In this document: piece by piece, positions 2,532 to 50,863 of the stretch
How positions within the stretch are numbered: position 1 is the first letter of the stretch
How the letters are laid out: the number at the start of each line of letters is the position of its first letter
Assembly (NCBI GenBank): GCA_011389735.1
Contig: JAABTS010000016.1
Coordinates: 1-54,482 of the forward strand
Length of the DNA: 54,482 nt
Source: Desulfobacteraceae bacterium
GTDB taxonomy: Bacteria > Desulfobacterota > Desulfobacteria > Desulfobacterales > JAABTS01
Reading direction: 5' to 3'
The notes under the pieces: generated by a model
What the model was told of the DNA's origin: nothing
Seen by the model: the letters and a program-made list of their open reading frames with translations, nothing else
The model's database searches: none
Made by a program: the position numbers and the translations under genes

Positions 2532-3848
2532 TTAATACATCAGGTTCGGCAGATATAAGATAATCTGCGGGAAAATGGACATAATAATGATTCCGATCAG
2601 CACGGCCAGCATGAACGGCAGCACTCCCTTGAAAATGGATTCCAGGGATATGCCGCCTCCGGGAAGGCCCCGGGCGACCCCGTAAACCACATAGACGTTA
2701 ATCCCCACCGGCGGCGTAATAACCCCCATTTCCGTCACCATGACGATAATGATGCCGAACCAGATCGGATCATATCCCAGTTCCGTGACCACAGGCAAAA
2801 AAATAGGGATGGTCAGCATGACCAGAGCCAGGGAGTCCATAAAGCAACCCCCTAGAAAATACATCACGACAATGACGCCCAGAACCATGAGTGCGGGCAT
2901 ATCGAATCCGCCGATCCAGGACGCGATATTGAAGGGAATCCGCGTGACGGCCAGAAACTTCCCGAATATGGTGGCGCCGGCGATGAGCAGCATGACCATG
3001 CAAGAAGTCCGCATGGTTTCGTACAACGAATCGACAAAAAGAGGCCAGGTCAATTGCCGGCGAATCAATGATACGAGCAGTACGCCGAATACGCCGACGG
3101 CCGCCGCCTCCGTGGGCGTGAACAATCCCATGAACAGACCGCCCATGACCAAAAGAAACACAGCCAGGGTTTCGCTCAAATCCACGAGCGACAGCAGTTT
3201 TACTTTCCAGGGGAATTTTTCACCGCGAGGCCCCTGGTCCGGAGCGAAAAAACACCAGACCATAATCGCGATCACAAACAGAAATGTCACCAGGATAGCC
3301 GGCAGGATACCGGCGACAAACAATTTTCCGATGGATTGTTCCGTCAGTACTCCGTATACGATCAACACCACGCTGGGAGGCATAATCATTCCCAGTCCGC
3401 CGCCGGACGCCACCGACCCTGCGGACAGTTCATCCGCATATTTAAATCGTTTCATCTCGGGCAGGCCGACCGTCGCCATTGTCGCAGCGGTCGCGGGGCT
3501 CGATCCGCAAACCGCCCCAAAAGCCGTGCAGGCGGAAACCGTCGCAATGGCCAGTCCGCCCTTGGTGCCGCCCAAAAATTTGTATCCCGTATCATATAAT
3601 CTCCGGCTGATTCCGCTCGCGAACGCTAACTGCCCCATTAAAATGAACAAAGGTATGGTGGTCAGGCCATACGAGGCGAACGTTTCGTAAATACTTCGGG
3701 CCAGAAGATTTAGCGATCCTTGAAAGGATATAATGATTCCGAACCCGAAAAAACCGACAATCGCCATCACATAGGCCACGGGCATCCGGGTCAAAAAAAT
3801 CAATATCATTATAACAATGCCGATAATACCGATCAGGGTGGGGTTCAT
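2532..3848 (-). CDS. dctM: TRAP transporter large permease DctM
   Basis: A 438-residue multi-spanning protein of the DctM family, the Na+-coupled transport subunit of TRAP systems. Family features are visible: the N-terminal hydrophobic helices, the loop AFGAVCGSSPATAATMATVGLPEM (about residues 112-135), GMIMPPSVVLIVYG, and the C-terminal half with GVITPPVGINVYVV. It acts in the inner membrane with DctQ and the periplasmic binding protein DctP, all on the same strand. The ATG at 3848 has GAGAG as ribosome-binding site. Unusually, its first bases duplicate the end of dctQ: the 41 bp around the start are repeated at 4004-4044, with a hairpin element between. Confidence 0.93.
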   Translation of the reverse strand: MNPTLIGIIGIVIMILIFLTRMPVAYVMAIVGFFGFGIIISFQGSLNLLARSIYETFASYGLTTIPLFILMGQLAFASGISRRLYDTGYKFLGGTKGGLAIATVSACTAFGAVCGSSPATAATMATVGLPEMKRFKYADELSAGSVASGGGLGMIMPPSVVLIVYGVLTEQSIGKLFVAGILPAILVTFLFVIAIMVWCFFAPDQGPRGEKFPWKVKLLSLVDLSETLAVFLLVMGGLFMGLFTPTEAAAVGVFGVLLVSLIRRQLTWPLFVDSLYETMRTSCMVMLLIAGATIFGKFLAVTRIPFNIASWIGGFDMPALMVLGVIVVMYFLGGCFMDSLALVMLTIPIFLPVVTELGYDPIWFGIIIVMVTEMGVITPPVGINVYVVYGVARGLPGGGISLESIFKGVLPFMLAVLIGIIIMSIFPQIILYLPNLMY

Positions 3849-4044
3849 GATTCTCTCAACTTTCTAAAATTTTGGCATCCTTCATCTGTCAGTTTACACT
3901 TTGAAATCGGGATCGGGATCGCTATCGAGAGCGAATTGTTTCGATCCCGATCCCGATCCCGATCCCGATCCCGACCTGGGAAGTGTAAACTATTTATCAG
4001 CATTCAGGGTGGGGTTCATGATTCTCTCAACTTTCTGAAATTTT
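3833..4044. repeat. Hairpin element flanked by a 41-bp direct duplication
   Basis: The 41 bp at 3833-3873 and 4004-4044 are identical except for one base (3866 versus 4037). Between them lies about 130 bp with inverted ends AGTTTACACTT (3890-3900) and AAGTGTAAACT (3981-3991). Inside are hexamer arrays, GATCGG on one side and CCCGAT repeated about five times on the other, which pair into a long hairpin. Removing one duplicate and the element restores an ATGA overlap of the dctQ stop and dctM start. The insertion thus kept both reading frames and a ribosome-binding site. A relative of the element lies at 50717-50834. There is no coding capacity. Confidence 0.8.
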
Positions 4045-4501
4045 CAACGATTCCTTTCATGATAATCAAGGAAAATACGATAAAACAAAACGCTACGGCG
4101 AAAATTACAAGCCATTCCGGAAGCTGGAGTTCAATTGATACTTCTCCGGACGCTTTCATTTTGAAGGCGTAATCCACCATGCGCCAGCTCACAATGCTGA
4201 AAAACACTAAAGCCGTGATTTGAGTGATACTGTCGATGACGAGTCTTTTGGTGGCCGATAAACGGGTGACGATGATTTCCACGCCGATATGGCCTTTTTG
4301 ATAGTGGGTGTCGGGCAAGGCAAAGGCCACGGCGAGTACGCCCATGAAAGTCACCAGTTCGACTGATCCGAAAATCGGATGCTTGAAAAACCGCCCCACC
4401 ACGTCAATGCACGTCAGAGCCGCCATTCCACAGAGGCATATGGCCCCCACCGCCCGCATTTTATCGGATACGAATTGAATTGCTTTCCAGATGGGATTCA
4501 T
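4016..4501 (-). CDS. dctQ: TRAP transporter small permease DctQ
   Basis: A 161-residue protein with four hydrophobic helices (about residues 17-36, 50-70, 92-110 and 128-150). The typical DctQ features are the segment CIDVVGRFFKHPIFGSVELV and the charged loop DTHYQKGHIGVEII. In TRAP systems DctQ is the small membrane subunit that pairs with DctM and docks DctP. The gene ends in KLRES followed by TGA. The original overlap with the dctM start has been broken up by the hairpin element and duplication at 3833-4044. The ATG at 4501 has no strong ribosome-binding site. It sits between dctP and dctM, as usual for a dctPQM operon. Confidence 0.9.
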   Translation of the reverse strand: MNPIWKAIQFVSDKMRAVGAICLCGMAALTCIDVVGRFFKHPIFGSVELVTFMGVLAVAFALPDTHYQKGHIGVEIIVTRLSATKRLVIDSITQITALVFFSIVSWRMVDYAFKMKASGEVSIELQLPEWLVIFAVAFCFIVFSLIIMKGIVENFRKLRES

Positions 4502-4612
4502 AATATCGATGCATCATCCTTGCCGCTGCCGAAACAATTTTCAACGGAGACCGGATCGCAGCTCTACCCGGTCTCCGTCGTTACCTTAAATCAAATATTC
4601 AAATAATCCGGA

Positions 4613-5632
4613 TTATTCAAAACGCTTCAGCGTCGCCCGGACCGCGTTTACAATGTCTTCCCCTTTAAAGCCCTGCTTGTTCAAGTCCTTGATTTTTTCA
4701 TCGATCAGAGGCGCGACGGCGTTTTTCCAGTTTTCCGCCTCATTTGAATCGAGCCCGATCAAAGTGTTTCCCTGTTGCAGGAAAAACCGAAGACCTTCCA
4801 TATCGCTGCTGTCCCAGGCTTCGCCGTGCTTAACCGCCCATTCCTTGCTGATCTCTTCAATCGCTTTCTGGTCTTTGGCGTCGATGGAATTCCATTTATC
4901 CTTGTTCATGACCACATAAAAAGCTGTGGTGTAGGCTGCTGAATAGGCGGCGGTCGCGTAATCTACGACTTCGCCCAGCTTCCAGCCTTTATTGGCTTCC
5001 AGCGGATATGCGGAACCGTCCACAACTCCTTTTTGCAGGCTCTGGTACGCTTCGGGCATGGGCTGAGCCACAGGCATGCCGCCCAGCGCTTTCACCACTT
5101 CCGCGCTCAAGCCCGTAGAACGGATTTTTACGCCTTTCAAATCTGCGAGTGTTTTTATTGGTTTATCTTTTGTATGGATTAGTCCAGGACCATGAGCGTG
5201 AATGTAGAGGAATTTGACATCATCAAACTCTTTGGGTTTGAATTTGTCAAACAGCTCGTTTGCAACGGCTGTTGCGGCTTCACCCGACGGATATCCGAAC
5301 GGCAGATCAATGGTGGCCATTACGGGAAACCTGCCTCGGGTGTAAGCCAGAGCGGACAAACCGATGTCGCAGATACCATCGACAACGCTGTCGAAGGTCT
5401 GCTTGGCGTTGGTCAATGTCTGTCCGGCGTAATACTGCACTTTGACGCGTCCGTTCGTGCGTTTTTCCACTTCCTTGCACCAGCTTTCCGGAAGCTCGCT
5501 CTGAATATGCGTCGGCGGGAAAAAATTGCTGTAGGTCAATGTGATGGATTTAGCGGCGGCCGGAACCGATGATAGTCCGGCCAGCATCATGCAAATAGTG
5601 ATTACGCAGAAAATTTTGGTGTTTTTTGTCAT
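4613..5632 (-). CDS. dctP: TRAP transporter periplasmic substrate-binding protein DctP
   Basis: A 339-residue secreted binding protein. The ATG at 5632 is chosen because AGGAG lies nine bases upstream; the frame extends nine codons further. Residues 1-28 form a signal peptide (MTKNTKIF, a hydrophobic core, then VPAAAKS). The mature part shows the DctP fold signatures: LTYSNFFPPTH, VQYYAGQTL, and GVKIRSTG, which holds the arginine that binds the substrate carboxylate in this family, then the QSLQKGVVDGSAYPLEA segment. A substrate carboxylate is therefore likely, and linkage to transhydroxylase-like genes makes an aromatic carboxylate plausible (inference). It follows the beta-1 gene by about 240 bp, with hairpins between. 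Confidence 0.92.
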   Translation of the reverse strand: MTKNTKIFCVITICMMLAGLSSVPAAAKSITLTYSNFFPPTHIQSELPESWCKEVEKRTNGRVKVQYYAGQTLTNAKQTFDSVVDGICDIGLSALAYTRGRFPVMATIDLPFGYPSGEAATAVANELFDKFKPKEFDDVKFLYIHAHGPGLIHTKDKPIKTLADLKGVKIRSTGLSAEVVKALGGMPVAQPMPEAYQSLQKGVVDGSAYPLEANKGWKLGEVVDYATAAYSAAYTTAFYVVMNKDKWNSIDAKDQKAIEEISKEWAVKHGEAWDSSDMEGLRFFLQQGNTLIGLDSNEAENWKNAVAPLIDEKIKDLNKQGFKGEDIVNAVRATLKRFE

Positions 5633-5788
5633 AAGAAGCGCTCCTTTTAAATTGATCATCTTAAAAAAAATGTGACGAAATCCTTTTCACTTATGCCGTT
5701 CCGGTTTCAAGCCACCTCCTTTCCTTCTCAATTATTGAATCCGCCCGCCCAACTCCTGCAGCCGTTCGGCGGAGGGGTCAATTAAAGA

Positions 5789-27480: not shown

Positions 27481-27909
27481 TTAACTGTTCAATTCCCGCG
27501 GCTCGGACGCCGCTTTTCCATACTTTTTCCGCTTGTTCAAGATTCTCGCCTGGTTTGCGTCCTGCAATTTGAACATCAATTCATCGATGTTCATGGGTTT
27601 CATCAGGTAATCAAAAGCGCCAAGCTCCATGCCTTGAACCGCAGCCTCGACGTTGGCGTGTCCGGTCAGCATGACGACTTCGATTGCGCTGTCGATCCGT
27701 TTGATCGCTTTCAAGGTTTCGATTCCGTCCAGTCCGGGCATTCGAACATCCAGCACCACCACGTCGATCAATTCCGCGCCGATCATCTCCAGCGCGTCTG
27801 CGCCGTTACGGGCTTCGAACACGGATACGCCCCGTTTGGCCAGACGTTTGGACAGAATGGTTAAAAAGTCCGCCTCATCATCCACAACAAGCACGTTGAA
27901 ACGGTTCAT
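27481..27909 (-). CDS. Single-domain response regulator (third of three in tandem)
   Basis: A 142-residue receiver: acidic pair in VLVVDDEADF, phospho-acceptor in VVVLDVRMPGLDG, switch threonine in VMLTGH, lysine in YLMKPMN, then a 20-residue basic tail (ILNKRKKYGKAA). It overlaps the preceding receiver gene by ATGA (27906-27909), with AGGA upstream. No output domain. It lies directly before the TauE/SafE gene. Confidence 0.92.
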   Translation of the reverse strand: MNRFNVLVVDDEADFLTILSKRLAKRGVSVFEARNGADALEMIGAELIDVVVLDVRMPGLDGIETLKAIKRIDSAIEVVMLTGHANVEAAVQGMELGAFDYLMKPMNIDELMFKLQDANQARILNKRKKYGKAASEPRELNS

Positions 27910-50692: not shown

Positions 50693-50716
50693 TTCCTTAT
50701 GCTTTTTGGCGTCTTT

Positions 50717-50834
50717 CATAAATGCTGATAAATAGTTTACACTTCCCAAATCGGCATCGGCATCGGTATCGAATTATTACGATCCCGATCCCGATCCCGA
50801 TTTTGATAAAACTGTAAACAAAAAATGAAGGACG
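50717..50834 (+). repeat. Hexamer-hairpin element, second copy
   Basis: Outer inverted ends GGCGTCTTTCAT and ATGAAGGACGCC, then AATGCTGATAAATAGTTTAC and ACTTCCCA, a GGCATC array, and a CGATCC array (three copies) before TGTAAAC. It corresponds to 3874-4003 read on the minus strand, which shares the AATGCTGATAAATAGTTTAC segment and the ATGAAGGATGCC end. Confidence 0.75.
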
Positions 50835-50863
50835 CCTGCTTTTTCTTCGTTTATTTTCTTTGA

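Follow-up and report, generated by a model that had tools for sequence, protein, structure and literature searches.

The window analysed in this work is the whole stretch of 54,482 nucleotides at positions 1 to 54,482 of contig JAABTS010000016.1 (Desulfobacteraceae bacterium, assembly GCA_011389735.1). Its minus strand carries a TRAP transporter set consisting of dctP, dctQ and dctM (PF03480, PF04290 and PF06808, respectively), and the junction between dctQ and dctM holds a short insert that lies between two copies of a direct repeat. The features referred to in the text are as follows.

2532-3848, minus strand: dctM, TRAP large membrane subunit (PF06808)
3833-3873: 41-bp repeat copy at the dctM start, the native dctM start region, its last 8 bp being the left target duplication
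3866-3873: left 8-bp target duplication, AAAATTTT, directly preceding the left terminal inverted repeat (TIR)
3874-4003: MITE-like copy, 130 bp, left end intact, right end short by about 13 bp
3874-3885, plus strand: left TIR, GGCATCCTTCAT, exact
3890-3992: predicted hairpin stem-loop with arms of the hexamer GATCCC/GGGATC
3990-4019, minus strand: mini-ORF MNPTLNADK plus stop codon, its ATG overlapping the dctQ stop, its first five codons those of dctM
4004-4044: 41-bp repeat copy at the dctQ end, 33 presumably re-copied bp plus the right 8-bp target duplication
4016-4501, minus strand: dctQ, TRAP small membrane subunit (PF04290)
4037-4044: right 8-bp target duplication, GAAATTTT, a 7/8 match to the left copy
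4613-5659, minus strand: dctP, TRAP solute-binding protein (PF03480), upstream in the same gene cluster
50708-50836: second, two-ended copy of the family, with the 8-bp TGCTTTTT at 50700-50707 and 50837-50844

The two copies of the 41-bp repeat (3833-3873 and 4004-4044) are identical at 40 of 41 positions, are offset by 171 nt and abut the 130-bp insert on both sides; one base, the T at 4004, is common to the end of the element and to the repeat copy at the dctQ end. Each copy holds one ATGA. The ATGA at 4019-4016 contains the dctQ stop codon (TGA, 4018-4016 on the minus strand), and the ATGA at 3848-3845 is the start of dctM. Folded as RNA, the 212-nt region has a predicted energy of -72.6 kcal/mol (z = -5.0), a value that none of 200 shuffled sequences reached. 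The first-pass annotation of this DNA, which described a 41-bp repeat around about 130 bp of hairpin DNA with one ATGA in each copy, agrees with these values in both respects.

We scanned the window and 205 loci of the same genome, some of them overlapping (418,482 bases altogether), for repeat pairs of at least 18 bp lying 50-400 bp apart, with a 15-bp exact seed and with units rich in the element hexamer filtered out. On reading the resulting rows, the pair at dctQ-dctM is the only single-copy pair that brackets an insert. The remaining rows are heptamer arrays, REP-like repeats (loci L002, L014 and L096) and isolated pairs at L116, L119 and window position 27657. Heptamer arrays of the ATTCAAC/ATTCAGC type occur at L015, L014, L239 and L011. 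The isolated pairs of L119 and of the window are 20 and 18 bp long, respectively, and that of L116 (609-647 and 869-907) is a 39-bp direct repeat (37/39), partly made up of heptamer units, with its copies 260 bp apart downstream of a MITE copy.

What the junction looked like before the insert arrived can be judged from related transporters. A DctM search of named genomes left 80 loci, mostly from Desulfobacterales, Desulfobulbaceae or Deltaproteobacteria, 78 of which could be evaluated (the other two had too little upstream sequence). The two genes overlap by exactly 4 bp, in an ATGA, in 62 of the 78; four further loci have a 1-bp overlap, one has a 25-bp overlap, and only 11 have any spacer at all, of 1 to 223 bp (the spacing of 49 at L180 is unsure, its start codon not being clear). 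In a second, partly overlapping set the 4-bp overlap was found in 13 of 29 relatives and in 9 of the 15 most similar ones; L064 and L080 of this set have no usable DctQ stop. In DctM, even the nearest relatives share no more than about 80% identity. Since the samples searched included no second genome from this genus or family, the lineage's own empty site does not appear among them. The earlier proposal that the ancestral genes overlapped by four bases is borne out by these loci, and the relatives with an uninterrupted overlap that it suggested for comparison do exist. Among the loci that do have a spacer, L068 and L194 (which are the same junction) and L192 have spacers of 187-190 bp with related sequence, about 80% identical over 71 bp; another part of the L068/L194 locus also matches its spacer over 29 bp (90%).

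The insert belongs to a large MITE-like family of its own genome with the TIR GGCRTCYTTCAT. A first BLAST search gave at least 86 matches on both strands (40 of 378 candidates scored), and the GGCRTCYTTCAT end motif has 360 exact sites in the genome (178 + 182) versus one in the reversed control. Within the window the motif taken by itself has two matches at one mismatch, a number equalled by 9 of 100 shuffles; it is not significant there; the case is carried by the genome-wide copies. Mutual-best pairing of motifs in inverted orientation gave 158 unique two-ended copies among the matches listed, a figure that is therefore at least 158 and does not comprise every copy of the genome. Eight of them, with a flank shorter than 20 bp, were dropped and 150 were used. 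Their lengths are 88-180 bp in 149 cases and 264 bp in one (the search was bounded at 70-280 bp), and 121 of the 150 lengths are multiples of 3.

The flanks of these copies give the length of the target duplication. An 8-bp flanking repeat matches at 8/8 positions in 99 of the 150 copies, at 7/8 in 25 and at 6/8 in five; 21 copies fall below 6, so that the end behaviour of the family is not uniform. When 200 bp to the left were compared with 260 bp to the right, flanks present in full in 141 of the 150 copies, no exact direct repeat of 16 bp or more was found in any of the 150. The per-position counts of 98 perfect 8-bp duplications show a preference for A/T-rich targets. The family is short, with no room for a transposase gene, has both TIRs, a constant 8-bp duplication and many copies, and is thus a MITE-like element that makes 8-bp target duplications. 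Two side observations belong here. At L109 (323-605) a palindromic, REP-like stretch lies beside a two-ended MITE copy and is bracketed by a 14-bp repeat that runs on past one mismatch; it is possibly another insertion with a longer duplication. Five TIRs of the family with unusual inner neighbours were also noted in the genome.

Profiles of the transposases PF01610 (ISL3), PF12762 (IS1595) and PF00872 (mutator/IS256) matched control genomes and gave no match in this genome. PF01609 has two matches. The flanks fetched around each contain a single TIR-like site, with 2 mismatches; no TIR closer to the motif is present there, and the site lacks an inward-facing partner of that quality. Neither match was therefore taken to be the transposase source. 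An autonomous copy may lie elsewhere in the genome (about 100 of the 360 exact TIR sites were among those listed). As to distribution, the 42-base end of one subfamily, with up to 3 mismatches, is present only in the own genome among 389 genomes of the order. Of 146 genomes of the order, 27, the own genome among them, contain a looser pattern (the TIR, 4-17 bases, GTTTACA) that gave no hits in reversed controls; it has 250 sites in the own genome and more than 100 in each of the genomes G034, G037 and G143, with up to 242 in G037. G073 and G129 are among the other genomes with this end pattern.

The window copy differs from the two-ended members in its right end. Its left TIR is intact and follows an 8-bp duplication, the two copies of which differ by one base. 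The right TIR is absent: the best site near the expected place has 5 mismatches in 12. The last letters on the right, ...AGTGTAAACTATTTATCAGCATT, are inner sequence of one subfamily. In the sibling L002 these letters continue into TATGAGAGATGCC and then the target duplication of L002; about 13 bp are thus missing from the window copy. Having the left TIR only, the copy is a truncated member of the MITE-like family and not a complete MITE. Beyond the 8-bp duplication the repeat extends for 33 bp, counting the one base shared with the element end, and one shared base at a junction is no more than expected by chance.

How rare such an end is can be seen from 343 core sites of the subfamily (2 further ones at a contig edge were left out), 8 of which have no adjoining TIR. 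Three of the 8 were set aside, namely L137 and L140, which have a small internal duplication beside a TIR, and L302, which has a loosely matched core with the TIR slightly farther out. The five that remain are the window copy, L139, L252, L295 and L317. No flanking repeat of 10 bp or more is present at L139, L252 or L317, and L295 runs off its contig. The window copy is thus the only one with a long flanking repeat at a TIR-less end, and since the three comparable copies have none, the event in the window has to be regarded as a single case. An A-rich 7/8 match near the truncated end of L252 was dismissed as chance, as no repeat of the other flank follows it. A comparison of positions 3000-5000 with Rfam gave six matches with E-values up to 1, all below the gathering scores; these matches, to microRNA hairpin families over the insert and to a scaRNA family outside it (3725-3830), are ascribed to chance. 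The 212-bp region has no match in the phage or plasmid collections.

The origin that we consider probable is an ordinary insertion with an 8-bp duplication and, during or after it, a one-ended, template-switch repair that re-copied the dctQ-dctM junction. A non-autonomous GGCRTCYTTCAT element would have entered dctQ within its final codons, at a point 25 bp upstream of where dctM starts, with normal strand transfer and the usual 8-bp target duplication at its left end. On the right, the element would have lost about 13 bp, the TIR included, and the trimmed end would have been joined, via at most one shared base, to a fresh 33-bp copy of the target contiguous with the 8-bp duplication. This copy would begin 33 bp beyond the duplication and run through it into dctQ, the joining being a template-switch repair of the strand-annealing type at one transposon end. 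As a result DctQ has kept its C-terminus and stop codon, and dctM its upstream region and start. The sequences themselves show the 8-bp duplications of the family, the missing TIR, the overlap in the relatives and the two intact reading frames; the order of the events, the template and the loss of translational coupling we infer.

Two routes to such a junction can be envisaged. In a single episode, the broken target arm may have copied 33 bp from the empty sister chromosome and then been joined to the unprotected element end. Alternatively, a later partial tandem duplication may have been followed by a precise deletion between 8-bp duplications. Judged by its letters, the sequence appears equally compatible with both, since both would leave the same final letters. 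Other bacterial transposons are known to be excised precisely between their short target duplications, a process in which inverted repeats assist. The second route, which is a post-insertion variant of the same explanation and not exclusive of it, can draw on this precedent: 33 bp, the 8 bp and the element would be tandemly duplicated by template switching, and the second element would be precisely deleted between the 8-bp copies. It would yield exactly the order observed without an empty sister template. However, it takes two steps, and no tandem intermediate was seen among the 150 copies examined, so we hold it to be possible rather than probable.

A different history, in which a 41-bp tandem duplication of the junction came first, the element landed at the joint with an 8-bp duplication and its right end was deleted later, would also give the same final letters and would fit the truncated right end. 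It is unlikely in our view, as it needs three events and an element landing precisely where the first 41-bp unit ends; moreover, a long junction repeat was found at only one of 12 spacer loci of relatives (L219), and there it brackets an insert. An assembly artefact, in which a multi-copy repeat led to a false join in a draft of 477 contigs, has to be considered since the element is multi-copy and several contigs of the genome end within copies. Yet both flanks belong to one dctQ-dctM pair, the 41-bp copies differ by one base and the junction is absent from the other 84 sites of the same subfamily end, all of which makes an artefact very unlikely. Finally, that the element itself moves by a replication-based route which makes a 41-bp target duplication is highly improbable and largely refuted by the other copies: the repeat does abut the element on both sides, but most copies have duplications of 8 bp, none of the 150 has an exact flanking repeat of 16 bp or more, and the window copy lacks the right TIR.

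Note how this modifies the first-pass annotation. Its claim that the insertion split an overlapping gene pair stands, the overlap being the common state in relatives. The 41-bp duplication did leave both genes whole, as it had proposed, but is not the target duplication of an element that makes 8-bp duplications and has no flanking repeat of 16 bp or more in 150 copies. With the right TIR missing, 33 of the 41 bp have to be traced to a separate or aborted joining event. The replication-based mechanism it considered is retained as a likely copying step in repair at one end and dropped as the mode by which the element moves. The flanks of the other copies, which it recommended for inspection, mostly carry duplications, of 8 bp.

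There is a second duplicated junction among the relatives. In L219 (Desulfobacteraceae bacterium 4572_130) the dctQ-dctM junction, before position 3000, holds a different insert of 169 bp, which has no match among the other loci of this analysis. It lies between the copies of a 35-bp repeat (34/35); the first spans the dctQ stop and the second is found just before dctM. L219 is the only one of the 12 spacer loci tested to have a long repeat at this junction (L068 and L194, both counted, being the same junction). This may point to a tolerance of insertions at this site if the junction is duplicated along with them; two cases make no rule. One might speculate further that insertions at coupled junctions survive in these bacteria mainly via one-ended joining and template copying, recurring as a self-mending insertion at dctQ-dctM, and that in the window the duplicated start acts as a coupled 9-codon decoy ORF ahead of the hairpin and resets the DctQ:DctM ratio, a proposal that we regard as doubtful.

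What the re-copied stretch would save can be computed. If an element end of the L002 type followed the 8-bp duplication, the tail of DctQ would read ...VENFGISHKC and not ...VENFRKLRES; an intact element end would thus replace the last six residues, and the re-copied 33 bp restore the native tail and the stop codon. The dctM start now lies 167 nt from the dctQ stop with the hairpin in between, and the old coupling point opens a 9-codon mini-ORF whose stop, at 3990, falls within the foot of the predicted hairpin. The computed pairing with an anti-Shine-Dalgarno stretch is nearly equal for the two copies (-7.3 and -7.2 kcal/mol). In work with reporters on three Haloferax and three E. coli gene pairs (PMC10666635), a spacer of about 20 nt almost abolished coupling: 22 nt put an end to reinitiation in one Haloferax pair, and a 38-nt spacer caused an 80-90% drop in two E. 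coli pairs and abolished reinitiation in the third. For coupling to occur, 15 nt from the end of the upstream gene were enough. Given the 167 nt and the hairpin that now separate the dctQ stop from dctM, and the mini-ORF at the old coupling point, the translational coupling of dctM has probably been lost and replaced by independent initiation.

It is instructive to compare the locus with known systems. The ancestral dctQ-dctM junction is of the same type as the ATGA-overlapping pairs with termination-reinitiation (PMC10666635; PMC6728339). Unlike these pairs, the overlap in the window is split, its ATGA copies are 171 nt apart and the first opens the 9-codon ORF. BrickBuilt of Porphyromonas gingivalis, an example of the prokaryotic MITEs whose interior is a minisatellite, resembles the family in being short and multi-copy with small inverted-repeat ends and interior tandem repeats. 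Its units are 23 nt long and its copies are reported to be intergenic in every case (PMC4596501), whereas the present family has 6-nt units in a hairpin, mostly lengths in multiples of 3 (121/150) and the ends GGCRTCYTTCAT. The Correia, ERIC and QMITE elements, as covered in passages of a review (PMC10969869), are MITEs able to sit in transcripts like the family described here, and some QMITE2 copies lack direct repeats and TIRs through truncation, as the window copy lacks its right TIR. They differ in sequence and host, and those passages do not couple truncation to a re-copying of the target. No description of the present family was found among the literature matches listed.

A parallel for the joining step comes from animals. 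According to a study on Pack-TIRs (PMC8277862), gap-filling or template switching takes place at DNA transposons, and 190 (67.6%) of the cases in that study have short microhomology, 1-36 bp long with a median of 2, at one breakpoint or at both. Pack-TIRs and the window copy have in common that copied DNA is joined to a TIR element. However, Pack-TIRs are eukaryotic with fillers inside the element, whereas in the window the copy replaces a terminus and its source is the target itself. Titles and abstract beginnings among the literature matches listed contain no bacterial counterpart of template switching at DNA transposons. The anomaly is real and lies on top of an ordinary kind of element, and no second copy like it was found.

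The finding marks a MITE-like family that is abundant in its own genome and whose looser end pattern is shared by 27 of the 146 genomes searched, its own included. The case records, in letters, a mobile element striking an overlapping gene pair, where copying at one end would have restored what the insertion would cost. Should dctM now be translated independently, the locus would offer a natural test of the role of coupling in the stoichiometry of TRAP transporters.
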